Origin: a virus
DNA: 37,119 nucleotides
Direction: 5' to 3' (one strand)
IMG/VR virus record: IMGVR_UViG_3300036046_000377
Coordinates: 1-37,119 of that record
Both the position numbers and the translations under genes were made by a program. The notes under the pieces are model-generated. The model saw only the letters and a program-made list of their open reading frames with translations, searched no databases and was not told where the DNA came from. This document shows positions 1 to 24,345 of the stretch, in pieces (the first letter of the stretch is position 1; each line of letters starts with the position of its first letter).

Positions 1-405
1 ATGTCGCGAATCCCGACCATCGCCGCCCGCGTGAACGAACGGGCGCAACGCGACGCCGGCGGCGTGTCCGAACGCGAACGCCGCGACCACGCGGAGCGGA
101 TGGCCGCGGTGCACGGCGGGCCGATCCGCCGGCACGGGGTCGCCCGGTGGCTCACCCGGCCGACGTACGACGCCGCCCGCGACGCGACCCGCGGCACGCT
201 GGAAATCAACGGCGAGCGGTATGAGTACGCGGCACCTATCGGCGGTGAGACGACCCTCACGCGGTTCGATGGTGCCATCTTCCGCTTCGCCACGGACGCG
301 CTCGGCAATCTGACCTGTGACTGTCACGACACGTTCTACACCGGCTGCCGGTGCCTCCACGCGAACGCACTCCGCGCCGCGTTGGCCGCACTGGAGCCCT
401 TCTAA
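1..405 (+). CDS. Small SWIM-type zinc-finger protein, copy 1
   Basis: A 134-residue protein. Its C-terminus carries the SWIM signature CxCx(n)CxH: C-D-C near residue 106, then C-L-H about a dozen residues on, followed by a short helix (NALRAALAAL). SWIM fingers bind zinc and are known to contact DNA or protein; no enzyme domain is visible here. The middle (RHGVARWL, then a GxLxINGxxY strand pattern) aligns with the protein at 2165-2467, so the two are paralogues. The N-terminal 40 residues are charged and absent from the paralogue. The first base of the window is the A of the ATG, so an upstream start cannot be excluded. The octapeptide-repeat gene begins 11 nt downstream, the same order as at the second copy. 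Confidence 0.7.
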   Translation: MSRIPTIAARVNERAQRDAGGVSERERRDHAERMAAVHGGPIRRHGVARWLTRPTYDAARDATRGTLEINGERYEYAAPIGGETTLTRFDGAIFRFATDALGNLTCDCHDTFYTGCRCLHANALRAALAALEPF

Positions 406-416
406 GGGGGGAAGCA

Positions 417-1034
417 ATGGAAACACGACACGCGACGGCGGGCGTCCACGGCACCGCGATGGCGGGCGCCGCAGGCACCGCGACGGCGGGCAAGTACGGC
501 ACCGCGATGGCGGGCGACCACGGCACCGTGTCGGCGGGCGACGCGGGCACCGCGATGGCGGGCGACCACGGCACCGTGACGGCGGGCGACGCGGGCACCG
601 CGATGGCGGGCGACCACGGCACCGCGACGGCGGGCTATGCCGGCACCGCGACGGCGGGCGCCGCGGGCACCGCGATGGCGGGCGACTACGGCACCGCGAC
701 GGCGGGCGACTACGGCACCGTGACGGCGGGCGTCCACGGCACCGCGACGGCGGGCGCTGCGGGCACCGCGACGGCGGGCGACTACGGCACCGCGACGGCG
801 GGCGACTACGGCACCGCGACGGCGGGCTACGGCGGCACCGTGTCGGCGGGCTACGGCGGCACCGTGTCGGCGGGCGTCCACGGCACACTGATTACCCGGC
901 GTTGGGATTCAACAGCCGGCCGCGTCCGTTACGTCGTCGCTTACGTCGGCGAAGACGGCATCCTTCCCCACACGCCGTACCGCCTAACCGACGACGGTAA
1001 ACTCGTCCGCGCCGATAAAGGGGGAACCCCATGA
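417..1034 (+). CDS. Octapeptide-repeat beta-solenoid protein, copy 1 (19 repeats)
   Basis: A 205-residue protein starting at the ATG behind the purine-rich AAGGGGGGAAG. Residues 7-158 are 19 consecutive octads of the form TAGxxGTA, in which only the two x positions (DH, DY, VH, AA, YG and similar) and one A/T/M/V position vary. Octads with paired T-x-T and AG-[DY] are the pattern of bacterial ice-nucleation proteins, which fold as beta-solenoids with two octads per coil; 19 octads would give about 9.5 coils. Residues 159-205 form a non-repeated C-terminal cap (AYVGEDGILPHTPYRL), also present in the copy at 2470. Unlike that copy it has no N-terminal globular domain. Function is unknown; ice binding is only a structural analogy. 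The stop overlaps the next start as ATGA. Confidence 0.75.
   Translation: METRHATAGVHGTAMAGAAGTATAGKYGTAMAGDHGTVSAGDAGTAMAGDHGTVTAGDAGTAMAGDHGTATAGYAGTATAGAAGTAMAGDYGTATAGDYGTVTAGVHGTATAGAAGTATAGDYGTATAGDYGTATAGYGGTVSAGYGGTVSAGVHGTLITRRWDSTAGRVRYVVAYVGEDGILPHTPYRLTDDGKLVRADKGGTP
435..890 (+). repeat. 24-bp tandem repeat array coding 19 octapeptides
   Basis: Nineteen in-frame 24-bp units. Each has an almost fixed 18-nt core (GGCACCGCGACGGCGGGC) and a variable hexamer (GACCAC, GACTAC, GTCCAC, GCCGCG, TACGGC and others). Variation is concentrated in the hexamer. Because the unit is a multiple of three, long stop-free frames also appear on both strands here; these are not genes. Confidence 0.95.
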
Positions 1035-1210
1035 TCGACTGCATCACGCAAGAACTGTCCGACGGAACGGAGGTGGAATGGCGACCCGGCGAGACAATCC
1101 GAGAGGCGGAGTCCCGCGTCTCCGCCGACGGCCGGCTGATTCACACCGTCATCGACGAGTGGACGTGGGTTCGCAAGCGCATCACAACCCTAGCGGAGGG
1201 CGACCGATGA
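1031..1210 (+). CDS. Hypothetical 59-aa protein
   Basis: A short gene, MIDCITQELSDG to the C-terminal TTLAEGDR, that fills the gap between the repeat protein and the 188-aa gene. Its ATG overlaps the upstream stop (ATGA) and its TGA overlaps the next ATG (ATGA), the translational coupling seen across this operon. The sequence is acidic in the first half (DGTEVEW, REAES) with a Trp/Arg-rich patch (EWTWVRKR) near the end. No family is recognised. Support is positional: with it, the operon has no gap. Confidence 0.6.
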   Translation: MIDCITQELSDGTEVEWRPGETIREAESRVSADGRLIHTVIDEWTWVRKRITTLAEGDR

Positions 1211-1773
1211 GTCTAATTCCGATCCCGAACCGCCGCGCCGCGGAAACGCTCGGCGCGCTGACGGCGAGTAAGGACGGCGGGGGGCGGTACGACTTCGGCA
1301 GCGTCCGAGTCTCCGCCGATCCCGACGGGCGGGTCGAGCTAGCGGCGTGTAATAACGTCGCCGCAATCATCGTCACCACCCCCGTCGGCTTCACGACCCC
1401 CGAACGGCGTACCGCCGCGGTGCCGGCGGCGAAGTGGAAGGCGGCGATAGCGGCCGGGCACCTCGACGTGGCGAAATACGCCTCCGAAGAACTGCAGCCC
1501 TCCATCGCGACCGCGTGTCCGGCCGACGCGACCGCGCTGGCGTCCGTCACAATCGACGCGGAGCATCTTCTACCACTCTTGAAGGCCGTCGCCGCGTTCG
1601 TGCGGCGGGGGCATCACGAATGGCGCAACGGCCGACGGCGGCCGTACCACGCCGCGGAAGTGCGGTTGACCATCCACCGCGACCCACGACAGCCCCTCGT
1701 TCTCACCGCCGATTGCGTCGATGGCTCAAACGTGGTCGGCTTACTCTCCACAGTCAATACGGAGGTGCGCTGA
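1207..1773 (+). CDS. Hypothetical 188-aa protein, possibly sliding-clamp-like
   Basis: The start is the ATG at 1207, preceded by GGAGGG at good spacing and overlapping the previous stop. The protein alternates predicted strands and short helices in a pattern reminiscent of DNA polymerase III beta-clamp domains: a strand pair ending in GRVELAACNNVAAIIV (compare GRLxLxATDxxxAI in clamps), a helix after AAVPAAKWKAAI, then VTIDAEHLLPLLKAV, and a final strand hairpin LVLTADCVDGSNVVGLL. It is about half the length of a DnaN clamp, and the match is by eye only. It could instead be an unrelated small phage beta protein. It lies between the two SWIM/solenoid cassettes, and its stop overlaps the next start as TGATG. 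Confidence 0.45.
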   Translation: MSLIPIPNRRAAETLGALTASKDGGGRYDFGSVRVSADPDGRVELAACNNVAAIIVTTPVGFTTPERRTAAVPAAKWKAAIAAGHLDVAKYASEELQPSIATACPADATALASVTIDAEHLLPLLKAVAAFVRRGHHEWRNGRRRPYHAAEVRLTIHRDPRQPLVLTADCVDGSNVVGLLSTVNTEVR

Positions 1774-2168
1774 TGACTGCGAGGCAACGAGTTTGGCGTG
1801 ACGGGTTCGCCCCACAGATCAGCGACGCCGGCCTCGCGGCGCTCCGGGCGGCCCTTGCGGCCAACGATCCGCGTCTCATTCAAGGCGCGTCAACTCGGCC
1901 GCCGCCGATGAATGCGGTGCTTGACTGGCCAGCCGAAGGCGCTTGCGCCGTCGGTTACTGCGGCTGGCAGTGCGGCAACACTGTCGGCGAAGTCGAACAC
2001 TACTTCGCCGACGCGTGCTATCAAGCCGACCGCCGCCTCGGCGAGCCCGCCGCCTGCCGCTGGTTCCTCAACTGGTACGACGATGAGGATCGGGCGGTGG
2101 TGTTCGCGGAGTTGCTCCGCGAAGTGGATCGGGAGATTTCGCGGCGGGCCGCGGGGGTGGCAGCGTGA
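1773..2168 (+). CDS. Hypothetical 131-aa protein
   Basis: The start is the ATG at 1773, behind GGAGG and overlapping the preceding TGA. Features visible are a central Cys/Trp/Gly segment (GACAVGYCGWQCGN), an acidic stretch with aromatic residues (NWYDDEDRAVVFAELL) and a charged C-terminal helix (REVDREISRRAAG). The three cysteines within about ten residues plus one more downstream (ADACYQ) could bind a metal, but no known motif is matched. The gene is translationally coupled to the second SWIM gene, whose GTG overlaps its TGA. Confidence 0.55.
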   Translation: MTARQRVWRDGFAPQISDAGLAALRAALAANDPRLIQGASTRPPPMNAVLDWPAEGACAVGYCGWQCGNTVGEVEHYFADACYQADRRLGEPAACRWFLNWYDDEDRAVVFAELLREVDREISRRAAGVAA

Positions 2169-2467
2169 CGCCGCAACGTCTCTCCCGCCACGGGGTGGCC
2201 CGCTGGGTCGCCCGGCCCGTGACTCATGCCGACATCCGCGCGGCCGTCGGCGTGTTGTCTATCAACGGGACGCCGTACACGTTCGTTCGCCTCCTCTCCG
2301 CCGGCGTCGTGCGACTCAGCAAGGCGGATGGGACAACCTATCAAGTTGCCCGCGACCCGGACACGGGTGAAGTCTCCTGCGACTGCCCGGACGCGACGTA
2401 CCGGCCGGGATGTTTCTGCAAACACCGTAACGCGGTACTCGCCGCGTTGCTTCACTCAGGGGGGTAA
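2165..2467 (+). CDS. Small SWIM-type zinc-finger protein, copy 2
   Basis: A 100-residue protein starting with GTG, overlapping the upstream stop (GTGA). The C-terminus has the SWIM pattern C-D-C-P-D ... C-K-H (residues about 72-87), a closer match to the family consensus than copy 1. The N-terminal RHGVARWVARP and the strand LSINGTPYTF align with copy 1, showing the two arose by duplication and diverged well. No catalytic residues are seen; a zinc-stabilised binding module is the safest description. The second octapeptide-repeat gene starts only 2 nt after its stop, so the pair is almost certainly co-translated. Confidence 0.72.
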   Translation: MTPQRLSRHGVARWVARPVTHADIRAAVGVLSINGTPYTFVRLLSAGVVRLSKADGTTYQVARDPDTGEVSCDCPDATYRPGCFCKHRNAVLAALLHSGG

Positions 2468-2469
2468 CT

Positions 2470-3579
2470 ATGACCGTACGACTCACGCCCGACCTACTCG
2501 CCGCAGTGGACCGCTCCCGCGCCGCGGGCACCCACTTCGGCCTCCGAACATCCAACGCCGACGGGACCAGCTACAGCGGTTTCCAATGGCCGGCGGCGGG
2601 CGGAGAGGCCGTCGCGCCGGATTGGAGGTCTGACGCGACGTGCGGCGGCGGACTCCACTACCTACCGCGGGGGGAGGGGAATGCAGCCTTACTGCGTACG
2701 AGCGCGGATGCCTTGTGGCAGGTGGTCGAAATTGACTCCGCGAACGAAGTCCGTATTGACTCCGATAAGGCGAAGTGCCTGACGTGCCACGTCGTCTACG
2801 CCGGCACTCGCGACACCGCGACGGCGTTAATTGCGACTCGACACCCCGAAGCCGCATGCGCGTACGGCACCGCGAAGGCGGGCGACCACGGCACCGCGAC
2901 GGCGGGCGACGAGGGCACCGCGATGGCGGGTGACCACGGCACCGCGACGGCGGGCGCCGCAGGCACCGCGACGGCGGGCGACTACGGCACCGCGACGGCG
3001 GGCGACTACGGCACCGTGACGGCGGGCGTCCACGGCACCGCGACGGCGGGCGACTACGGCACCGCGACGGCGGGCGCCGCGGGCACCGCGACGGCGGGCG
3101 ACCGCGGCACCGCGACGGCGGGCTACGACGGCACCGCGAAGGCGGGCTACGGCGGCACCGCGACGGCGGGTTATGCCGGCACCGCGACGGCGGGCGACGC
3201 GGGCACCGCGACGGCGGGCGCCGCGGGCACCGCGACGGCGGGCGTCCACGGCACCGCGAAGGCGGGCGACCACGGCACCGCGACGGCGGGCGACCGCGGC
3301 ACCGCGACGGCGGGCGACTACGGCACCGTGACGGCGGGCGTCCACGGCACCGCGAAGGCGGGCGACCACGGCACCGCGACGGCGGGCGACCGCGGCACCG
3401 CGACGGCGGGCGACCGCGGCACCGCGACGGCGGGCTACGGCGGCACGCTGATTATTACCCACTACGACCGTGCGGCGAATCGCAGACTCGTCGCCGTGGC
3501 CTACGTCGGGGAAGGGGGAATTGAACCTAACCAACCCTATCGACTAAACGTCGCCGGTAAGTTCACCCCCGCCATCTAG
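2470..3579 (+). CDS. Octapeptide-repeat beta-solenoid protein with N-terminal globular domain, copy 2 (24 repeats)
   Basis: A 369-residue protein behind AGGGGGG. Residues 1-130 form a globular domain with the segment ATCGGGLHYLPRG, a Cys-Gly-Gly-Leu-His feature that resembles the N-terminal domains found ahead of octapeptide repeats in other phage proteins (DUF7666-like; recognition from memory). Residues 136-327 are 24 octads of TAGxxGTA type with T-A-T ladders; four octads replace the first T by K. Residues 328-369 are the same cap as in copy 1 (VAYVGEGGIEPNQPYRL). Two octads per coil would give 12 solenoid coils. Function unknown. The gene is last in its operon and is followed by a strong terminator 24 nt downstream. 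Confidence 0.78.
   Translation: MTVRLTPDLLAAVDRSRAAGTHFGLRTSNADGTSYSGFQWPAAGGEAVAPDWRSDATCGGGLHYLPRGEGNAALLRTSADALWQVVEIDSANEVRIDSDKAKCLTCHVVYAGTRDTATALIATRHPEAACAYGTAKAGDHGTATAGDEGTAMAGDHGTATAGAAGTATAGDYGTATAGDYGTVTAGVHGTATAGDYGTATAGAAGTATAGDRGTATAGYDGTAKAGYGGTATAGYAGTATAGDAGTATAGAAGTATAGVHGTAKAGDHGTATAGDRGTATAGDYGTVTAGVHGTAKAGDHGTATAGDRGTATAGDRGTATAGYGGTLIITHYDRAANRRLVAVAYVGEGGIEPNQPYRLNVAGKFTPAI
2875..3450 (+). repeat. 24-bp tandem repeat array coding 24 octapeptides
   Basis: Twenty-four in-frame 24-bp units with the same 18-nt core and variable hexamer as the array at 435-890. A three-octad block (VH, then K-bearing DH, then DR) occurs twice within the array (octads 16-18 and 20-22). A run of AA-DY-DY-VH octads is shared with the first array. 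Both point to unit duplication and exchange between arrays. Confidence 0.95.
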
Positions 3580-3602
3580 CCGGGGCAGTGAACGGTCACT
3601 AA

Positions 3603-3636
3603 AACACGCCGGGTAGCTCCCGGCGTGTTGCGTTTT
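3603..3636. terminator. Strong, probably bidirectional intrinsic terminator
   Basis: A perfect 11-bp stem (AACACGCCGGG at 3603-3613 and its complement at 3619-3629) with a 5-nt loop TAGCT, followed by GCGTTTT on the + strand. On the - strand the stem is followed by TTAG after the paired TT, so it could also act in reverse. It closes the SWIM/solenoid operon and insulates the integrase region. Confidence 0.85.
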
Positions 3637-3654
3637 CCGCTGGACATCGGCGCG

Positions 3655-3671
3655 CCGAACCGGCCGGCACC

Positions 3672-3678
<7 letters not shown>
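3655..3678. repeat. 9-bp perfect inverted repeat at the edge of the att region
   Basis: CCGAACCGG at 3655-3663 and CCGGTTCGG at 3670-3678 flank the 6-nt spacer CCGGCA. The right arm overlaps the anticodon-loop end of the tRNA-Pro fragment. Inverted arms about a 6-8 bp overlap are the layout of tyrosine-recombinase core sites, but the left side does not match a tRNA anticodon stem, so its role is uncertain. Confidence 0.5.
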
Positions 3679-3715
<37 letters not shown>

Positions 3716-3768
3716 TTGGTGAAAGTACTCCCGCGGCACCTTCCGGGGCACGGAATGGGCAGCGAACC

Positions 3769-4731
3769 ATGCCGCGACCCGTCTCCGGCCCGTGGTATCG
3801 GGTCGCCCGTGACACGTGGTACGCGACGCTCGCCGGCCGCGCGGTGTCGCTCGGCATCCGCGGGGCCGGCTCGCACGTCGCGGCGATAGACGCGTGGCGC
3901 GCCGCGACGCGCCCCGCCCGCACCGTCGGCGACGTGGTCACGGCGTACCTCGACTCGGCGCGTCTCCGCGTCGCTCCCGCAACCGCGGCGTGGTACGCGT
4001 CGCTGCTGAGCCCCTTCGCAGCCGCGTACGGCCTGCGTGACGCGGCGAGCCTCACGGCCGACGACATCCACCGCTACGCCGCGTCGCGTGTCACGTGGTC
4101 CGCGGCGACTCGGCACGGGGTGATAACCTGCATCCTCTCCGCGTGGCGAGCGGCGGGCACCCCGATCCGCGGTACTGTGCGGCGGCCGGTGAAGCGCCGC
4201 CGCACGCCGGCCACCCTCATCGACGCCGACGCGCACCGCCGGGTACTCGCCGCGGCCCCGCCGTGGTTGCGGGAGTACGTAGACGCGCTCTACGCCACCG
4301 GGGCGCGGCCGGGGGAGCTAGCCGGCGTCACGGCGGCGAACGTGACGGGCGACGTGGTGACGGTGTGGGAGCATAAGACAGCGGCACGCGGGCACTCTCG
4401 CACCGTCTACCTACCGCCGGCGACCGCGGCCGCGTTCCGCCTGCTCGCCGCGGCCCGGCCGGTCGGCCCGTTGTTCCGCGGGCGGTATGGCGGTGGGTTA
4501 TCTCGCAACGCGGTGGTACACGCGTTCGCGGCGATCCGCCGCCGTACGGGGCTATGCGTCACGGCCTACGATTACCGGCACACATTCGCGACGCGGCTGT
4601 TGGCGGCCGGCATCCCCGACGCGGTGGTTGCGGAGCTACTGGGGCACCGGGGAACCGACACGCTGCACCGGCACTACGCGCACTTGTCGGCGCGGTCCGA
4701 CGTGTTGCGGGCGGCGATCGCGTCACTCTGA
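3769..4731 (+). CDS. int: Tyrosine site-specific recombinase (phage integrase)
   Basis: A 320-residue tyrosine recombinase that would catalyse strand exchange between the phage site and a tRNA-Pro gene. The start chosen is the ATG at 3769 (MPRPVSGPWY); the frame is open further upstream, but that part is the translated tRNA fragment. An N-terminal SAM-like core-binding domain spans roughly residues 50-140 (TVGDVVTAYLDSAR onwards). Catalytic residues visible are Arg180 (ATGARPGEL), Lys203 (EHKTA), Arg270 in AYDYRHTFATR, His293 (LLGHRG) and the nucleophile Tyr303 (HRHYAHL). The usual first His of the HxxR box is Tyr here (YDYR), a tolerated variant. The 3' end converges with and overlaps the end of the - strand operon by 9 nt. 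Confidence 0.93.
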   Translation: MPRPVSGPWYRVARDTWYATLAGRAVSLGIRGAGSHVAAIDAWRAATRPARTVGDVVTAYLDSARLRVAPATAAWYASLLSPFAAAYGLRDAASLTADDIHRYAASRVTWSAATRHGVITCILSAWRAAGTPIRGTVRRPVKRRRTPATLIDADAHRRVLAAAPPWLREYVDALYATGARPGELAGVTAANVTGDVVTVWEHKTAARGHSRTVYLPPATAAAFRLLAAARPVGPLFRGRYGGGLSRNAVVHAFAAIRRRTGLCVTAYDYRHTFATRLLAAGIPDAVVAELLGHRGTDTLHRHYAHLSARSDVLRAAIASL

Positions 4732-5184
4732 GACGACGGCGCACGTCGGCTGCCGGCATCGCGACCGCCGCGGCGCGTAGCGAGGCACAACAGCGACCCC
4801 GCCGGATCGGCGGGAGAAGTCGGGCCACGGAACGAAGGCGAGTCCGCACATGGGGTCCGCGACACTCAGCCGCTCCGCGTCATACCCGCAGCAGACAACC
4901 CAATGTTCCCCGCCGTAGGCCCGCATGTCCCATATCACCGGCCGGCCGCGGTCGATGAGTTGCCGCACGTCAGCCGCGGCCGGCCGGTGAACCACCGCGG
5001 CCTTAACGCCGCGAGATATCAGACACGCCGCGATGGACGCCGGCGACGTTCCGTGCATCACCGTGGTGTCGATATGCAACTCACGAACCGCGGCAGTCTT
5101 CCCGTACAGCGACAGCACCGCCATTGCGGCGCAACGGCCGCAAGAGTGGGTATCGGACTGGAGGTACACCGGCACGGGTATCAT
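4723..5184 (-). CDS. Papain-like C39-family peptidase-like protein
   Basis: A 153-residue protein with the order of active-site features of C39-like cysteine peptidases: Gln9 and Cys15 (QSDTHSCGRCAA), a helix rich in small residues, His94 in EHWVVCCGYD, and Asp110 in VADP. The central GTSPASIAACLISRG and DVRQLIDRGRPVI segments fit the family. No signal peptide is seen, so it probably acts in the cytoplasm. C39 domains cut after Gly-Gly leaders in bacteriocin exporters, but stand-alone versions have varied or unknown targets. It is the last gene of the replication operon; its ATG overlaps the HD gene stop (ATGA), which fixes the start. It could be a counter-defence or host-takeover protease; nothing here proves that. 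Confidence 0.7.
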   Translation of the reverse strand: MIPVPVYLQSDTHSCGRCAAMAVLSLYGKTAAVRELHIDTTVMHGTSPASIAACLISRGVKAAVVHRPAAADVRQLIDRGRPVIWDMRAYGGEHWVVCCGYDAERLSVADPMCGLAFVPWPDFSRRSGGVAVVPRYAPRRSRCRQPTCAVVSE

Positions 5185-5726
5185 CGCGACGCCTCCAACG
5201 CGGCGTACATCGCGAGGAAGGCCGTTTCGGCGTCGTCCGGCATGTGCGGGAGGATGCGATAAGGAAGGGCCGGGTAGCCGTCCAACCACTCCACCCACTC
5301 CGTTCGGAAGCCGATGAGTTGTTGCACTTCCATAGTCAGGGCGCGGCGGTCATGCTCGCGTACGATGTCGGGGATGTCGGCCGGCAAGCCGAACCGCTCC
5401 GCGATGGCGGCAAGCAGCCGATCCTCAGCGGCGCGGAAGCCGGCAAACTCCGGTCGCTGCTTAATCGGCGCCGCCACGTCGCCTAGGTACGCCTCCGCGG
5501 CGTCGTGTAGCAAGCCCCAAAGCTGTGTCTCCGCGCCGTACACGTCCAACGACGCCGCGACGATAACGGAATGCTGCGCGACGGAATAGAACGGCTTGAT
5601 GTGCCCGTTGTAACGACACTGATAGGCGAGGGAGTGGGCGATATCGGTCAGATGGAGCCGCGCCGGGTCCGGCGAGTACGGGTCGATGAACTCGCCTGAC
5701 ACCGTCTGTATCGCCGTGCCGGGCAT
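5181..5726 (-). CDS. HD-domain phosphohydrolase (YfdR/5'-nucleotidase-like)
   Basis: A 181-residue HD-superfamily metal-dependent phosphohydrolase. Visible are His52 in FYSVAQHSV, the His74-Asp75 pair in LLHDAAEAYLGD, and Asp126 in EHDRRAL, the ligand set expected for one divalent metal. The ordered segments IAHSLAYQCRYNGH and GDVAAPIKQRPEF match the small HD proteins frequent in phages and prophages. They are thought to dephosphorylate deoxynucleotides, and the related DatZ of Z-genome phages removes dATP. Substrate cannot be read from the sequence. It is coupled to the dNTP diphosphohydrolase-like gene by a TAATG overlap and lies in the same operon as DNA polymerase, which supports a nucleotide-pool role. 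Confidence 0.85.
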   Translation of the reverse strand: MPGTAIQTVSGEFIDPYSPDPARLHLTDIAHSLAYQCRYNGHIKPFYSVAQHSVIVAASLDVYGAETQLWGLLHDAAEAYLGDVAAPIKQRPEFAGFRAAEDRLLAAIAERFGLPADIPDIVREHDRRALTMEVQQLIGFRTEWVEWLDGYPALPYRILPHMPDDAETAFLAMYAALEASR

Positions 5727-6118
5727 TAGCGGGCCTCCTCGACGTTGTTAACGCCGGCGGCAAGCCGGGCGACCAAGTCGGACCACGACGTACCGAAGTT
5801 GCGCGCGGCGGGTGTGACGCCGGCTAGCGATGCGTCCAACGCCATCAACGCGCGGCACGCGGCGTGCGATAAGTGGTCGTCGGACCGGTCGCCGGCGAGC
5901 CAAGCGAAGTAGTGAGTCATTGCATGGTTAACGTGGTCGGCGACGGTCAAGCCGCGCCAATTGTCCACGCCGTACTTCTTCGCCCCCACGTCCAGCACGC
6001 CGGCGACGGCGAGACACGCGCGAGCCGGCAGCAAGTCGCACCGCGTGCCGGTATCGGATTGCTTCGCGCCGGCGGCGTTGACTTGCGTCGGCGCGTCGGG
6101 AGATAGGTCTACGGCCAT
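5726..6118 (-). CDS. dATP/dGTP diphosphohydrolase N-terminal-domain protein (DUF5664/MazZ-like)
   Basis: A 130-residue protein with the hallmarks of the phage family named for dATP/dGTP diphosphohydrolase (former DUF5664): GAKKYGVDNWRG (residues 45-56), a helix with His62, His65 and His69, and the acidic/His patch DRSDDHLSHAACRALMAL (77-94). Family members are all-alpha, MazG-related NTP pyrophosphatases. MazZ of some 2-aminoadenine phages hydrolyses dATP and dGTP. Here it lies between an HD phosphohydrolase and a family A polymerase, the neighbourhood expected for dNTP-pool control. The N-terminal 20 residues are a poorly conserved leader. Confidence 0.75.
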   Translation of the reverse strand: MAVDLSPDAPTQVNAAGAKQSDTGTRCDLLPARACLAVAGVLDVGAKKYGVDNWRGLTVADHVNHAMTHYFAWLAGDRSDDHLSHAACRALMALDASLAGVTPAARNFGTSWSDLVARLAAGVNNVEEAR

Positions 6119-6121
6119 CGC

Positions 6122-8224
6122 TCACCCCCTCGCTGTTACGCTCGCGTACCCCGGCCACGCCGACTTAACGTACCGCGGACACGCGTAGCCCTCAACCGCT
6201 ACCGGCAGCCCCGCCGCCCACGCGGGGGCGGCAGCGACGATGTCGGCGACGCGTCGCGGGTCGGCGGACTCGGCGACGATTTCGTCGTGGATATGCATCA
6301 CGACAGTTACCCCCGCTGCCTCCAACCGCGCCAACGCCGCCGCGAGCAAGTCGCGGCATATCGCTTGAATCACGTTCTCCGCAATCTTCCCGCCGTAGAG
6401 CGTTCGTTCGCCGCGGGGCGACTCGTAGATGAGCGTGGGTCTCGCCCGGCCGTCCGTCGAATAGACCGGTACCCGATCCTCGACGCGCGCCAGCCGGTAG
6501 AACAACCGCCGGCCGGAGGGCAGGCGGACCGTCACCGCGCGACCTTCCCGGCGAAACTCACATCGGCCGTCGCGAGCAACGCCGCCGGCGACCGCGGTGG
6601 TAAGCGCCGCCTCATATCGGTGCCAGAGACCGCCGCGGCGGAATACGCGTCCATCCCGCCCACCGGCCCGCTGGCCGGCGATTGCGGCGTACGCGTCGCG
6701 ATAGCCCTCGACACAATCCGCCGCCGTCACGCCGGCGGCGGATAAGTCAACGCCGGCTAACGCGCAGTAGTCCGCCAGCCGTGGCGCCGACATCCCGTAC
6801 CCGCAGCCCAGCGTGACGACTTTCCCGATTTGCCGCTCCGCCACGTCCGCCCGCGTGCATGGGCGGCCGAAGATGCGCGACGCGGTCAAGAGGTAGGGGT
6901 CACCGTCGTCACGGAAGGCGCGAAGCAACCCCACTTCGTCTGCGGCCCATGCGAGACCGCGGCATTCGATGGAGGCGAAGTCTACGACAGTGAAACGCGC
7001 GCCGGCGGACGGAATGAAACACGGACGAATTAGAGTGGACAAAACATCGTCCGCCGACGCGTTGATTCGTTGGGCTTCGGCGCGCACCGATTCCAGCGTC
7101 AAACCGCCCGGCGCGGTGAGAGCCGGCACGTCTACGCCCTTCGCACCGCGGGGCAGGTTGTGCGTTTGCACCCCCCGCGATGCCCACCTCCCGGTATGGG
7201 CTCCGTAGTACACGTGGAGGCCGTACAGTCGCTCCCGGCCGGCCGACGACGCGATAGCGCGGGAGAGCTTCGCGCCGGTGATACGGAGAGCGGATTGCCG
7301 CAGCCGCAATACCTCGAGTACGTCCGCCGACACCTCCCACGGCGGGGCGGCGTCGTCCGTGTCGCCGACCGCCGCGTCGGGGTCGGCGAGGAACTGGTCT
7401 ACGGTCTCCCGCCGGAGATTCGCGAGCCGCACGCCGCGAGACTCAAGCCACCGGCGCATCTTCGGCACGGAGCGGATGTCCGCCGCGGTAAGCTCGCCGG
7501 CGGTGCGCCGCTCAATCTCCGCCGTCGCGTCGGCGACCATGTCGGCGGAGACGGCGCAGATACGGGCGGCGAGCGATTCATCGAACCTCACGCCGCGAGC
7601 GTTCACCGCCCGATCTACGGCGACGATATCCGGCTCGGCCGCGCCGGCGATATGCGGGTAGACATCGCGGAGTAGCAGCACGTCCGCCACGTTGTAACGG
7701 GCCACCGCGGCGACGATGCCGGGTTGCTCGTGCGGCGTTCGGCCGTCCGCGTCCAGCCGCGTCACGGACTTCATGTACGCCGCACCGTCCGTATCCTTCC
7801 CGCGGCCCAGCGTCGCGAGTGCGAGGTCATCCAACGCCGGCGGGTACCCAGCGGCGCGCGCGTCGTGGATCGTATCGACCCACCGAACCGGCGGCCCCTT
7901 CACCACGTCGCGCCATATCAACGCGTCGAACGCGTCAGCGTTGTGCGCGACGAACGCGACGGCGGGGTCGGCGGCGAGCCGCCGAATCGCGTCGGGTAGC
8001 TCCCGGCCGCGGTACAGCGCGCGGGGTTCTTCCGGCCACCCGGCCGGCCACAGTGTAGGGGCGGCGGGTAGCGGAGCGGCGGGAACCCAGATATGCGTAA
8101 CACCGTTGCAATGCACCACCAGCGACAGTACGCGCGTTGACGCATCCGCCGCGTAGGCGGCACCGCCGACCGCGGGCAGGTCGGCGGCGGATTGCGTCTC
8201 AATATCGATGAACGCCGGCGTCAC
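6122..8224 (-). CDS. Family A DNA polymerase with 3'-5' exonuclease
   Basis: A 700-residue replicative phage polymerase. The start is the GTG at 8224, overlapping the primase-helicase stop (GTGA) and placing the exonuclease motif right at the N-terminus. Exonuclease motifs: Exo I FIDIE (Asp7, Glu9), Exo II AHNADAFD (about 93-100), Exo III YNVADVLLLRDVY (177-189, with Asp181). Polymerase motifs: TGRWASRGVQTHNLPR (344-359), motif A VVDFASIE (Asp415), motif B RQIGKVVTLGCGYGM (464-478), motif C IHDEI (645-649). All catalytic residues are present, so both activities should work. It has no 5' nuclease domain, typical of phage enzymes. It is shorter than bacterial Pol I. Confidence 0.95.
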   Translation of the reverse strand: MTPAFIDIETQSAADLPAVGGAAYAADASTRVLSLVVHCNGVTHIWVPAAPLPAAPTLWPAGWPEEPRALYRGRELPDAIRRLAADPAVAFVAHNADAFDALIWRDVVKGPPVRWVDTIHDARAAGYPPALDDLALATLGRGKDTDGAAYMKSVTRLDADGRTPHEQPGIVAAVARYNVADVLLLRDVYPHIAGAAEPDIVAVDRAVNARGVRFDESLAARICAVSADMVADATAEIERRTAGELTAADIRSVPKMRRWLESRGVRLANLRRETVDQFLADPDAAVGDTDDAAPPWEVSADVLEVLRLRQSALRITGAKLSRAIASSAGRERLYGLHVYYGAHTGRWASRGVQTHNLPRGAKGVDVPALTAPGGLTLESVRAEAQRINASADDVLSTLIRPCFIPSAGARFTVVDFASIECRGLAWAADEVGLLRAFRDDGDPYLLTASRIFGRPCTRADVAERQIGKVVTLGCGYGMSAPRLADYCALAGVDLSAAGVTAADCVEGYRDAYAAIAGQRAGGRDGRVFRRGGLWHRYEAALTTAVAGGVARDGRCEFRREGRAVTVRLPSGRRLFYRLARVEDRVPVYSTDGRARPTLIYESPRGERTLYGGKIAENVIQAICRDLLAAALARLEAAGVTVVMHIHDEIVAESADPRRVADIVAAAPAWAAGLPVAVEGYACPRYVKSAWPGYASVTARG

Positions 8225-10614
8225 GCGGCACCTGCGGTGATGAAGCGAACGCGCACGCCGGTCGTGCCGTCCGGTTTGATTTCGCACGCGACGGGCTGCG
8301 CCGAGCCGGTGAGGGTTTTCCAGTCCGCCTCCAACACGCGCCGTGACTGGCGGCGCGTCCGCCAGAAAAGCGTAGAATCACACATCCCGTCCCACAACGT
8401 CGCGAGTGGGTCCGTCGCCCCCACCTCAATATGCGCGTACCCGTCGCCGTTCGCGGCGGCTCGCACCGCCGCGTAGAAGCGGCGCAGTTCGTTCACCCCC
8501 TCCATCGCGACGGCGGAGTTTTCCAGCCGGGGGTACCCGAGCTCCGCCGCGATGGCTTCGAACGGCGGCGTTTCGCCGGTGAACCATCGGTCTACGACCC
8601 CCGACGTGATAGCATCGCACGCGTCGGCGTAGTACGGGGAGTGCCAGCGGAAGCGGGAAATCTGCCGGACGCCGGACGTGGCGAGCGTCGGTTCCCACTC
8701 CACTCGCGACCGCAACGCCACGCCGACGGTCCGCCGGCCAAACTGCCCATCCTCCGCGACTTCCCGCGGCGTGGCGGTGTCAGTGATGATCGTCACCGGC
8801 ATCCGCCCCAGCGGGACGCGGCCGATGTATAACTCGTGCGTGAGCGTAGCCGGCGTGAGGGTTAAGAAGCGGTCGGCCGCCTGCCGCGGCGAGAACCCGT
8901 CCGCGTCCGCGTGTTTGAAGAACTCGTCGATCCCGACGAAGGAACCGCGCTTCGCCGCCTCGGCGAAGCCTCGCTCAAACGCGGCCTTCCCCTTCTCCCA
9001 CGTCAGCGCGGAGTATTCATCCCCCAGCATCGCCGCGACTAGTTGCGGCGTGGCGGTTTTCCCCACGCCGGTCGGGCCGGTGACCAGCAAGATCGGCGGC
9101 AAGCCGGCGAGGTTTTCGGTACACCCCTTTGCGGCGAGGAGAAGCATCAGGTACTCGCGGTCTACGCCGGGGAAGACTTCCTCGACGCGCCGCCACGCCT
9201 CCGCCACACCCAACCGTTCGACGGCGTGGCGGTACCGCGGATGCCGATCCCACGGAACGCCCTCCATCCACGCCTGCCGCACGTTGAAGAATGCCCCCTC
9301 CGCGGGTTGCCGGCGGTTCATGCGCAGGCCGGAGATGATCGACAGATACGGGTAGCCGTAGGCGTGGAGGCTATGCGTTTCGTTGAGGGTGTCTACCTTT
9401 TGCGGCACCGCCTTACCCTCCGGCGTCCAGGTCGCCGGCAACGCCGCCACCTGCCGGTCCGCGCTCACGACGTACGGCTGGCCGGCGTCGTTACCCCAGA
9501 ATCCCCGGAAGCGGAAAACGCCCTCCCCCGCCGTGAACACAGCGGCAATGCGGGGGTCATCGTTGCCGTGCACCGCGCAGAGGAGGGCTTCATAGATGAT
9601 GCGCAGATTCGCGTTCGCCGCCAGCGATACGGGCAGGCGCGCGGCGAGAACGTACCGCGCGTGGTCCCAATGGGTGAAATTCTCCACCATCACGCGCACG
9701 TCACTCATCGCGTCGCGACGGACGAACGCGGCGTAGGGGAAGACGCCGGGGGCCTTCGATCCGTGAACCGTGCCCATCGCGGTACACTTGTGACATGTCA
9801 CGCAATCGTTGCCGAAGAATACCGGCTCACCGTGCGACGGTACACCCGGCGCGACGGGGCAACGGTCGTGCGTGTACGCGGCGTTGCGATTCACACCCCG
9901 CTCCACGAGCCAGTCGTCAACCGCCGCCGGATCGGCTTCCGTGCCGAGTAGGCGGCGGACGGGGGAGAGGTCGGCGGACGGGATGCAGCGATTGATTTCC
10001 CCGCGCGGCCGGCGGCAGTGGGTCAGCACGTCAAAAGTTGCCGACGGGTCGGCTAGCACCACCGACACGCCACCTGCCGCGGCGAGTAGTCGGGCGGATG
10101 TCGTCGGCGTGCCGACGTAGAGCAAGTGCGCGCCGCCGCCGCGACTGACCCACCACCGCGCCGGGCGGGGCACGACCTGCGCGATGAGGCTTTGCAGCTT
10201 CGCCGCGGGCGGGGCCGGCGTCTCGCCGTGGTAATCCACGTCACACACCGCCAGCCGGTTGGCGTCGGACCACCGGATTTCCGAATCGCCCGCGACATCG
10301 GCCGCAAGCGCCGCATCCATCGCGGCGAGCGGGTCGGCGTCGGTGTACTCCGTTCCGCCGCCGGGGACGCCGATAGTGCGGAGGGTCACGGTGAACGCGG
10401 CGGCGTTAGCCGCGTCCGCCGGTCCGTCGAACTGCACCACCGGGCCGACCTCCGCGCATTCCGCGACGCGTTCCGCGAACCATGCGGCGTCAACGCCGAG
10501 CCTCTCCGCAACCGCCGTCACGTTGGACGCCGGTGCGTCGGTAAATCGCTCCGGCTTGCGGCCGTTAAGCGTGGCCTCAAGGCGATTCTTTCGATACCTC
10601 TGTAACGTTAACAT
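8221..10614 (-). CDS. Primase-helicase (AEP-like primase fused to P-loop helicase)
   Basis: A 797-residue fusion. The N-terminal part carries archaeo-eukaryotic primase motifs: motif I LAVCDVDYH (Asp125, Asp127) and motif II SRGGGAHLLY (Ser157, His163). A Cys cluster follows (Cys252, Cys271, Cys274, Cys277), a probable zinc site. The C-terminal part is a P-loop ATPase with Walker A GPTGVGKT (513-520) and Walker B FVGIDE (Asp563, Glu564), then a stretch resembling D5/SF3-type phage helicases, including VTIITDTATPREV. The protein would prime and unwind at the phage origin together with the polymerase encoded next. The ATG at 10614 has a G-rich region upstream on its strand. Confidence 0.85.
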   Translation of the reverse strand: MLTLQRYRKNRLEATLNGRKPERFTDAPASNVTAVAERLGVDAAWFAERVAECAEVGPVVQFDGPADAANAAAFTVTLRTIGVPGGGTEYTDADPLAAMDAALAADVAGDSEIRWSDANRLAVCDVDYHGETPAPPAAKLQSLIAQVVPRPARWWVSRGGGAHLLYVGTPTTSARLLAAAGGVSVVLADPSATFDVLTHCRRPRGEINRCIPSADLSPVRRLLGTEADPAAVDDWLVERGVNRNAAYTHDRCPVAPGVPSHGEPVFFGNDCVTCHKCTAMGTVHGSKAPGVFPYAAFVRRDAMSDVRVMVENFTHWDHARYVLAARLPVSLAANANLRIIYEALLCAVHGNDDPRIAAVFTAGEGVFRFRGFWGNDAGQPYVVSADRQVAALPATWTPEGKAVPQKVDTLNETHSLHAYGYPYLSIISGLRMNRRQPAEGAFFNVRQAWMEGVPWDRHPRYRHAVERLGVAEAWRRVEEVFPGVDREYLMLLLAAKGCTENLAGLPPILLVTGPTGVGKTATPQLVAAMLGDEYSALTWEKGKAAFERGFAEAAKRGSFVGIDEFFKHADADGFSPRQAADRFLTLTPATLTHELYIGRVPLGRMPVTIITDTATPREVAEDGQFGRRTVGVALRSRVEWEPTLATSGVRQISRFRWHSPYYADACDAITSGVVDRWFTGETPPFEAIAAELGYPRLENSAVAMEGVNELRRFYAAVRAAANGDGYAHIEVGATDPLATLWDGMCDSTLFWRTRRQSRRVLEADWKTLTGSAQPVACEIKPDGTTGVRVRFITAGAA

Positions 10615-21372: not shown

Positions 21373-24345
21373 TTGCCTGAGACGCGCGAATCGTACCCCG
21401 ACTACTTCCACAGCCTGACCAGCCCCTACGCCGAGCCGCGCGACGCGTTCGCCGACGTGGCTTGGGGCTTGTCCGGCAATTGGTTTTTCCCGCCGCCGTT
21501 GTACGTGGATTCGACGAAGCGCGGCGAAGCGCTCCCGATCTACACGACGGAGGCGCAGTTGAAGGTCATCCGCGACCGCAACCGCCGGCTGGTTGCGGAG
21601 AACGAATTCGCCCGATGCGTCGTCGACACGCGCATCGCGTTCATCGTTGGGACCGGCTTCACCTACGAAGCCGCGGCGGTCGGTGTGGGAGTTGATCCGC
21701 GGCTCCTCGCCGACGTGCAGCGCGTGATTGACACCTTTGCCGCGGCGAACCACCTGCCCGCGCGGGAGGCGGAGGCGCAGCGGCGGCTAGACCGCGACGG
21801 GGAGTACTTTCTCCGCCTCTTCCCGCGCCCGTCCGGCCTACTCGCCGTGCGGTTCGTTGAACCGGAACACGTCAAAGCGCCGGCGGGGGAGTGGACGCCG
21901 GCGCGTTCTTTCGGCGTTGAAACTGACCCGCGAGACGTGGAGTCTGTGACGGGTTACTGGGTTGTTGATTGCCCCACGGAGAACACCGCGCCGGAGCTAG
22001 TCGCGGCGGACAACATCATCCACGTTCGCGCAAACGTCGATTGGTCGGCGAAGCGGGGGCTGCCGTTGCTCTATCCGGTGGAACCGAACCTCCGCCGCAT
22101 CGAAGAGCTACTCGCCTCTATGTCCACCGCCGCGAAGGCGCGGGCGAAAATCGCGATGATCCGCCGGCTTGACGGCCCGAACCGGTCGGCGGCGGACAAG
22201 ATGGCCGCGTCACTCGCCGACGGGCAGACTGCCGACCCGGCGACGGGCACGGCGACGAATATCGAACGGTTGCGGTTCGGTACCATCCTCACCGCGTCGA
22301 AGAATCTTGACTACGAATTCCCCGACGCCGGCGTCAACGCGGCGGACACCGTTGCCGTGCTGCAGGCGGAACTCCGCGCCGTCGCGGCGGCGGTGATGAT
22401 GCCGGAATTCATGTTGTCCGCCGACGCGTCCAACGCGAACTACAGCAGTACCCTTGTCGCCGAATCGCCGTCGGTGCGGAACTTCGAACGTCTCCAACGC
22501 ATCCACGCCGACACCTTCGCGCAATCCGCCGGCTCCCTGTTGTGGCGACAGATTCGCGAGTGTGTGACGGTCGGCGTCTTGCCGGCGGAGGCGTTGACGC
22601 AAGTGCGCCTCCACGGCGTCGGGCCGCCGCTCACGGTGCGGGATCGGGATAAAGAGGCGACTATGAACGCGGCGTACATCAACGCCGGTGTGAAGTCGCG
22701 CCGCACCGTCGCGACGGAATTGGGACTCGACTTCGACGAAGAGGCTCGCAACATCGCCGCGGAGCGTGCGCCGGCCGAGCCGGCCCCGACCACGGAAGTG
22801 GTAGACGACGCCGGGCATAAGCACGGGGCTGACGGTAAGTTTAGCAGCTCAAGCGGCGGCTCGGCGGCCGGGCCCGACGACTTGCCGGGCGGTGCGACGA
22901 TTAAGCCGAGTGAGCATGGCGTCGGGTTGTACGTGCCCGGAAAGCGCAAGCCGATTTTGCAAGCGGAGGATCGCGAGTCATTGTTGCGAATGGCTGCGCG
23001 AATGACGACGCCGGCGCACGGCGACGGGCTGCGCGGGTTGATAGCTCGCCACACCGCCGACGCGTCGAAGGGTAAAGGCGCGGACGACAACTTTCGCGTC
23101 GGCGACAAGACGGTCAGTCGGGCGGAGTTGATTAAGGCGCAGCGTGACCACCTAGCGCAGGCGGAGGATAGCTACGGCCGGCCGATTCCGAAGGTCGGCG
23201 ACGAAGTTAGTAAGCTCGCCTTTGTGTCGGCTCGGCAGCGGTCGGGCGACGCGCCGCCGCCGCGCATGGTCGGGACGTTGGAAGTTGAGCCGGACGGCCT
23301 CCACGTCGTCGCGGTGAAGGCAATAATCGGCGGCACGGTCCGCGGCGTGAAGGTCGGCGACCGCGCCCCCTACAAGGCGGATTGGCGCGTCGCGTCGCCC
23401 ACCACGGAAGAAACGGTAGTCGGCCGTGATTCGTTGGGCCGGAAGTACAAGGCCGTCGATGGCAATCGCGTTCCGCCGGGCGACGCGGAGAAGCCGAAGG
23501 CGGAGAAGCCGGACATCACAAAGCCGGTGACCGACAAGGCCCCTTCGCTCGCCGAACGGCAGCGGCTAAGCCTCCGCGCTCAAGTTTCGTCATGGCTTAG
23601 CCGGCACGACGGCCCGCCCGGCCGCGAGGCTCGGCTTGAGATGTATGACGGGCTGATTGACGGGGAATTGGAGGGGTCCCTCGGCAATCACGAAGGCGGC
23701 GCGTCCGGCAAGGCTGCCCGTGATTTGCTTATGGAGGCAGTCGGCGCGGCCTTGTTCGGCGGTAAGTTGACCGGCGGGTCGGGGTCACCGGACGATATTA
23801 ACGTCGGGCACGTGTACGAAAAGCTGGAGGGGCAACCTAGGCTGTTAATCGATATCAAGCGATACCTATGGGACTCCTCCGGCCGCGCTCGCGGACACCA
23901 CGGCGCGAAGGATTTAATTGACAAGCTGGAAAACCTCAACGATGATTGCTACGCGCAAGTCGCGATCATCCCGCCGGGTCGGGGTAAGCCGGGGAAGATT
24001 GTTGCGCGGTTTGGGGTGAAGTCTCTTTCGGACACGAACGGCGTCGTCCTGGCGGAGGGGTTTTCTTCGATTCGGGATGTACTTGCCGACCCGGCGCGGT
24101 ATAATGATTTGAAGCGGCGTTACGAGGCGTTCCGGGACTCCCTCACGCCGGAAAGGTGGGCGCAGGTGCGAGAAGAAACGCAAGACACGAAGGCTGACAT
24201 CGCGGCAAACCTCGCGAAGACGTTGGAGGGGAAGGCCGCGGCGAAAGTCGCGGCGGCGCTGCCGAAGGAGTCGCTGCTGGCGGCGACGGCGGAGTCGCTA
24301 GGCGTGTCGGTGGAACAATTGAAAGCGATGCGCAAGAAAAAGTAG
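21373..24345 (+). CDS. Portal protein with long C-terminal extension of unknown function
   Basis: A 990-residue protein beginning with TTG (GGAG upstream). Residues 1-480 are a phage portal: LVAENEFARCVVDTRIAFI, DGEYFLRLFPRPSG, VRFVEPEHVKAP, DNIIHVRANVDWSAKRGLP, and the clip/stem region MMPEFMLSADASNANYS. It would form the dodecameric DNA gate at one capsid vertex. A His/Gly/Ser-rich linker (HKHGADGKFSSSS, about 484-496) joins an extension as large as the portal itself. This has a Lys/Pro hinge (EKPKAEKPDITKP) and a domain near 740-910 with Asp807/Asp808 and Asp827-x-Lys829 (LLIDIKRY), which resembles a PD-(D/E)XK nuclease core. Portals are usually 400-600 residues. Confidence 0.85.
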   Translation: MPETRESYPDYFHSLTSPYAEPRDAFADVAWGLSGNWFFPPPLYVDSTKRGEALPIYTTEAQLKVIRDRNRRLVAENEFARCVVDTRIAFIVGTGFTYEAAAVGVGVDPRLLADVQRVIDTFAAANHLPAREAEAQRRLDRDGEYFLRLFPRPSGLLAVRFVEPEHVKAPAGEWTPARSFGVETDPRDVESVTGYWVVDCPTENTAPELVAADNIIHVRANVDWSAKRGLPLLYPVEPNLRRIEELLASMSTAAKARAKIAMIRRLDGPNRSAADKMAASLADGQTADPATGTATNIERLRFGTILTASKNLDYEFPDAGVNAADTVAVLQAELRAVAAAVMMPEFMLSADASNANYSSTLVAESPSVRNFERLQRIHADTFAQSAGSLLWRQIRECVTVGVLPAEALTQVRLHGVGPPLTVRDRDKEATMNAAYINAGVKSRRTVATELGLDFDEEARNIAAERAPAEPAPTTEVVDDAGHKHGADGKFSSSSGGSAAGPDDLPGGATIKPSEHGVGLYVPGKRKPILQAEDRESLLRMAARMTTPAHGDGLRGLIARHTADASKGKGADDNFRVGDKTVSRAELIKAQRDHLAQAEDSYGRPIPKVGDEVSKLAFVSARQRSGDAPPPRMVGTLEVEPDGLHVVAVKAIIGGTVRGVKVGDRAPYKADWRVASPTTEETVVGRDSLGRKYKAVDGNRVPPGDAEKPKAEKPDITKPVTDKAPSLAERQRLSLRAQVSSWLSRHDGPPGREARLEMYDGLIDGELEGSLGNHEGGASGKAARDLLMEAVGAALFGGKLTGGSGSPDDINVGHVYEKLEGQPRLLIDIKRYLWDSSGRARGHHGAKDLIDKLENLNDDCYAQVAIIPPGRGKPGKIVARFGVKSLSDTNGVVLAEGFSSIRDVLADPARYNDLKRRYEAFRDSLTPERWAQVREETQDTKADIAANLAKTLEGKAAAKVAAALPKESLLAATAESLGVSVEQLKAMRKKK

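Follow-up and report, generated by a model that had tools for sequence, protein, structure and literature searches.

Octapeptide-repeat proteins R1 and R2 of a divergent IMG/VR virus probably belong to the Bbp36/DUF7666 phage family, a relative of ice-nucleation proteins

The 37,119-nt virus record IMGVR_UViG_3300036046_000377 of IMG/VR (positions 1 to 37,119, referred to below as the window) opens with a locus that raises the question of whether a small SWIM-type zinc-finger protein and an octapeptide-repeat protein work together as a two-component system. In its first 3579 nt, seven open reading frames (ORFs), all on the plus strand, follow one another in the operon-like order S1-R1-ORF3-ORF4-ORF5-S2-R2, so that a SWIM-type gene (S1, S2) twice stands directly upstream of a repeat gene (R1, R2), separated from it by 11 and 2 nt, respectively. 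The first-pass annotation of this DNA, the coordinates and spacing of which we could confirm, proposed a functional pair for which no described system was known. Our results indicate instead that R1 and R2 are probably members of the Bbp36/DUF7666 octapeptide family, related to ice-nucleation proteins (INPs), and that the SWIM genes are more likely separate genes than part of a conserved two-component system. The phage repeat family itself has been described before, as the VR2 element of Bbp36 (PMC2884959); the more useful result is its homology to INPs in both terminal domains.

As predicted from the sequence, R1 (417–1034, plus strand) consists of repeats and a C-terminal cap only. Its 24-bp tandem array (424–886; TRF period 24, score 563) encodes 18 complete octapeptides and leads into a cap with the pattern HGTLITRRWD...AYVGEDGI...PYRL (879–1031). 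R2 (2470–3579, plus strand) is a full-length protein of the Bbp36/DUF7666 type, built of a DUF7666-like N-terminal domain of about 110 residues (2530–2847), a 24-bp array with 24 complete octapeptides (2864–3446; TRF period 24, score 838) and a C-terminal cap (3439–3576). The two caps are related, with 23 of 45 residues identical. The N-terminal domain is absent from R1, which either lost it or never had one. Thus, the repeat proteins do share their repeats and cap, as had been noticed at the outset, but they are not equivalent. All 42 octads of R1 and R2 carry the first Thr, while the second Thr position is occupied by Thr or Ser in 32 of them and by Met or Lys in 10. AlphaFold2 modeling of R2 from a 32-sequence alignment placed regular strands every 8 residues (mean predicted local distance difference test score, pLDDT, of 89.9), and this supports, as a prediction, the beta-solenoid that was proposed earlier for the repeats. 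A Pfam match of the arrays to DUF4774 was rejected as probably compositional, as only the octads were matched.

Assignment to the phage family relies on several profile searches. The phrog_18079 profile matched R2 with an E-value of 1.6e-76 and R1, through its repeats and cap, with 3e-44, and a family hidden Markov model (HMM) built without the window proteins scored 98.7 bits on the N-terminal domain of R2. By tblastn against phages we found relatives in the Bordetella phages BPP-1, BMP-1, and BIP-1 (Bbp36), in Burkholderia phage Mica (gp48, annotated as “ice nucleation protein”), and in vB_PaeS-D14O. Translations of Bbp36, Mica gp48, and the D14O protein have the same N-terminal domain, GTATAGxx octads, and cap as R2. 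They resemble both window proteins in the 24-bp coding unit, the GTATAG octapeptides, the YVGEDGI...Y-L cap, and the location in the early region. What sets the window apart is that R1 is devoid of the N-terminal domain, that two copies lie within 2.5 kb, and that each is preceded by a SWIM gene; no such gene precedes the repeat gene in Bbp36, Mica, or D14O. According to PMC2884959, which cites Liu et al. (2004), the 24-bp VR2 element of Bbp36 occurs in 9–20 copies depending on the isolate, its role is unknown, bbp36 is non-essential, and VR2 variation is apparently unrelated to tropism changes. Our literature search for DUF7666 retrieved nothing. The mycobacteriophage proteins Tweety gp54, Che8 gp57, and PMC gp51, which are presumed to be non-essential (PMC2884959), likewise have conserved ends that flank a tetra/octapeptide array able to expand; yet, their repeat is AAxx and the likeness to R2 is one of layout.

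When IMG/VR was scanned with the cap alignment, 80 loci came up; 52 are distinct, and in 35 of these the upstream sequence extends for 500 bp or more. Most of the 80 loci encode the N-terminal domain and octads together with the cap. Recurrent neighbors of the family are ERF annealing proteins, PD-(D/E)XK nucleases, single-stranded DNA-binding proteins, sliding clamps, and cI-type repressors, so that its members look early and cytoplasmic. More than one copy of the repeat gene per phage, without a SWIM gene, was seen in L027, L033/L043, L045, and L089. In four other loci (L055, L090, L107, and L108) the same C-terminal cap goes with other kinds of repeat (SQLAASGN, NARIGSSGY) and other N-terminal domains, which suggests that the cap is a mobile module used on several solenoid types.

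Homology of the phage family to INPs in both terminal domains is, on profile comparison, well supported. One of the bacterial cap matches (L109) turned out to be a classical INP with AGYGSTQTAG repeats; the phage N-domain and cap profiles matched its N-terminal domain and C-terminus, respectively. Comparison of the phage and INP alignments with hhalign gave 99.2% (E = 3e-19) for the N-terminal domain and 96.3% (E = 2e-9) for the cap, and BLASTP aligned R2 with the INP N-terminal domain at 29% (E = 7e-8). The test HMMs were built from phage and prophage sequences, with the window proteins left out. The N-domain HMM scored 92.4 bits on the INP, close to the value for R2, with 18.6 bits for the best of 200 shuffles; the cap HMM gave 39.6 bits on the INP cap and 4.1 bits for the best shuffle. 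Residues D1208 and Y1230 of the INP cap, two of the positions changed in a triple mutant whose activity was strongly reduced (PMC10727499), appear to match D10 and Y34, which are invariant among the phage caps. R2 thus corresponds to INPs in three modules: the profile comparison covers the two terminal domains, and the similarity in the TxT-bearing beta-solenoid accompanies their homology. The Pfam DUF7666 model did not match the INP N-terminal domain, so Pfam leaves the phage family and INPs unlinked. The INP literature that we checked, including PMC10727499 and PMC9418140, makes no mention of phage homologs, and Forbes et al. (2022; PMC9418140) found no structural homologs of the INP N- and C-terminal domains.

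At the same time, R1 and R2 differ from InaZ/PbINP-type proteins in being phage-encoded, in having an 8- instead of a 16-residue periodicity, and in forming about 9–12 predicted coils vs. 40–80. The 24 octads of R2 would make about 12 coils, short of the 30 or more WO-coils of INPs, for which about 30–70 coils plus 10–12 R-coils are reported (PMC10727499). Neither window protein has R-coils, a YGS or SLT motif, or a match to Pfam Ice_nucleation (PF00818), and R1 has no INP-type N-terminal domain at all. In an unrooted tree of N-terminal domains, the INP forms a single long branch within the phage diversity, and the row most similar to it is 43% identical. A genome from the bacterial family of the INP carrier (L112, reverse strand) encodes a bridging short protein that combines a DUF7666-like N-terminal domain, about three STLTGG octads, and an INP-like cap, and contains one in-frame TAG. 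We put forward, tentatively and as a possibility we do not favor, that INPs come from the phage Bbp36/DUF7666 family or share a recent ancestor with it, being domesticated and hugely expanded phage proteins, and that in the present phage two such proteins gained dedicated SWIM partners. Two of the loci show peculiarities of their own: in L065 a stand-alone N-domain ORF (4110–4670), 43% identical to the INP N-terminal domain over 102 columns, lies directly upstream of a full-length repeat protein, and in L109 the N- and C-terminal halves of the INP gene (1054–5129) are found in two overlapping frames, because the repeats contain either a frameshift or a misassembly.

The SWIM-type genes were then considered on their own. 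S2 (2165–2467, plus strand; 100 amino acids) has a GTG start that overlaps the stop of ORF5. S1 (1–405, plus strand; 134 amino acids) begins at base 1 of the contig, hence its N-terminus is uncertain and the 5′ end may be truncated. Their paralogy, claimed already by the first-pass annotation, is borne out by 42% identity over 90 amino acids (E = 5e-20). Both proteins contain CxC...CxH, the four Zn ligands of which are invariant also across two further viral relatives. The Pfam SWIM model (PF04434) scored S2 at 9.3 bits (E = 1.1), below its cut-off of 19.6; since the homologous viral protein in L011 exceeds this cut-off with 22.5 bits, the SWIM label is supported for S1 and S2 through homology. 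With PF04434 proteins they have in common the CxC...CxH and the following helix, and they depart from them in their sub-threshold score, their stand-alone size of 100–134 amino acids, and an additional N-terminal RHGVARW/GxLxING segment. The predicted fold of S2 is of low confidence (pLDDT 64), and a Foldseek search with it against the PDB gave no significant match.

Results of our surveys spoke against a conserved pairing of the two gene types. HMM searches detected no S1- or S2-like ORF in the flanks of the 80 cap loci, and Pfam SWIM was absent from 68 whole viral records that carry the repeat family, in a search for which control genomes gave a positive signal. A profile made of S1, S2, and the L011 and L095 relatives retrieved nothing convincing from 46 viral records with the repeat family; a match in the L040 record (E = 0.003) was rejected, as the CxH half is missing. 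Conversely, no cap, N-terminal domain, or octads were found near the SWIM relatives in L011 and L095, nor in the entire 97-kb L011 record. Cap matches occur in 5 of 399 Pseudomonadota genomes, and in none of the five is a SWIM gene nearby. As none of the 52 distinct viral loci, of which 35 offered enough upstream sequence, has a SWIM neighbor, a conserved functional pair is not supported, and neither is recurrent linkage in unrelated genomes. Repeat loci exist without SWIM genes and SWIM relatives without repeats; that repeat genes commonly occur alone was the very outcome that the first-pass annotation had named as refuting its proposal. An S-R partnership, if there is one, would be restricted to this lineage.

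The shared repeats are no sign of an old co-duplication, as the arrays have recently been homogenized at the DNA level, within and between R1 and R2. The six core positions of the 42 octads comprise 252 codons, of which 250 are the synonym most used for the residue in question (the other two being GGT for GGC), a uniformity with a probability of ~10^-68 under the phage’s own codon usage. The caps, in turn, use the same codon at only 10 of their 23 shared residues. In addition, 80 bp at 677–756 (plus strand) are identical to 2973–3052 and form a direct repeat between R1 and R2. Similarity of the repeats thus can neither evidence nor date a co-duplication. Recombination between the two 80-bp stretches would remove ORF3, ORF4, ORF5, and S2 and fuse R1 with R2.

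Could SWIM protein and solenoid nevertheless make up a genuine two-component module of this lineage, in which the former docks on the solenoid while binding DNA or a partner, with one specificity for each of the two diverged copies? The pair is found twice in the same order with narrow gaps; when the seven operon genes were shuffled, two S-R adjacencies arose in 60 of 1260 orders (4.8%). Both halves of the pair have diverged (42% and about 50%) yet were retained, and R1, despite its lack of the N-terminal domain, keeps its own SWIM gene directly upstream. However, the 4.8% figure also makes an en-bloc duplication of an S-R segment plausible, and one such event alone would preserve the order, so that no functional link is needed to account for it. 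Given also the absence of pairing in the distinct viral loci and whole records, and the SWIM relatives that exist without repeats, we regard the module as unlikely.

With regard to function, R1 and R2 are most likely non-essential, early, cytoplasmic, self-associating rods. We infer that they would be made early in the cytoplasm, where every two octapeptides (16 residues) would make up a coil of a flat beta-solenoid, with the cap closing its C-terminal end. By analogy with INPs, rods of about 9–12 coils may self-associate side by side through their flat faces; their role, as a scaffold or binding surface, would be accessory and non-essential. The number of repeats and the two variable residues of each octapeptide could shift when the near-identical 24-bp units recombine, also across R1 and R2. 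For the SWIM genes, we envisage separate small zinc-finger genes of this early operon that most likely came to lie next to a repeat gene twice because, in this lineage, an S-R segment was duplicated or an insertion took place beside it. Ice binding or weak ice nucleation, by which R1 and R2 would shield or modify an infected cell in the cold, could be read from the three-module architecture common with INPs, the Thr in every octad with mostly Thr or Ser at the second position, and the apparent counterparts of D1208 and Y1230. Yet ice nucleation is unlikely for arrays so short, with no YGS, SLT, or R-coil features and with Met or Lys in 10 of the 42 octads, and no cold niche is evident for the relatives from Bordetella, Burkholderia, and Pseudomonas phages; we consider this role very improbable. 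Equally improbable is a tail-surface or host-range factor, the repeat array of which varies through recombination. The differing VR2 repeat numbers of Bbp36 isolates and the homogenized arrays would suit it, but the genes sit in early replication/repressor regions and not in structural operons, and VR2 variation apparently does not follow tropism, according to PMC2884959, which also reports bbp36 as non-essential.

Several observations weigh against our assignment of R1 and R2 to an INP-related phage family with unconnected SWIM genes. Pfam DUF7666 itself matched R2 weakly (E = 0.003; 18.5 bits, below the cut-off of 27), and Foldseek found no significant match for R2 in the PDB. The comparison with INPs rests on one unambiguous INP sequence, self-association is carried over from far longer INPs, and a biochemical function is known for no phage member of the family. 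An en-bloc duplication is not shown by the cap tree, in which R1 and R2 are close without being sisters; a single clade was not rejected (approximately unbiased test, p-AU 0.29). Moreover, no close relative of the phage was found through its 797-aa protein or portal, so the survey of S-R pairs covers other lineages. Among 50,697 phage records, tblastn detected no relative of the 797-aa protein (8221–10614) and one of the portal (21373–24345) at 21% identity, indicating that the phage is very divergent.

Between R1 and S2 lie three further plus-strand ORFs, each overlapping the next by 1–4 nt: ORF3 (1031–1210; 59 amino acids) and ORF5 (1773–2168; 131 amino acids), both with no assignment, and ORF4 (1207–1773; 188 amino acids), which is perhaps sliding-clamp-like (weak match to phrog_947, E = 0.066). 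Sliding-clamp genes are located also near other members of the octapeptide family. No tRNA or Rfam family was found within the window. Downstream of R2, the stretch at 3683–3716 (GGAGGTTCAAATCCTCTCGCCCCGATT) resembles a tRNA 3′ end, although ARAGORN recognized no full tRNA there. It lies just upstream of a tyrosine integrase gene (3769–4731) and adjoins an inverted repeat, CGAACCGG...CCGGTTCG; judged by sequence, this region is a probable attP/att core. An operon convergent to the integrase encodes a C39-like peptidase (4723–5184) and a protein with a dATP/dGTP diphosphohydrolase N-terminal domain (5726–6118; PF18909, 1e-19).

Although the two-protein system finds no support, the repeat family is of interest in its own right. 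The N- and C-terminal domains of INPs gain a large set of short natural phage relatives, and the origin of INPs, together with a minimal self-assembling TxT solenoid, becomes directly testable. For the Bordetella phages, the link to INPs points to the structural class to which the VR2 repeats, long without an explanation, may belong.

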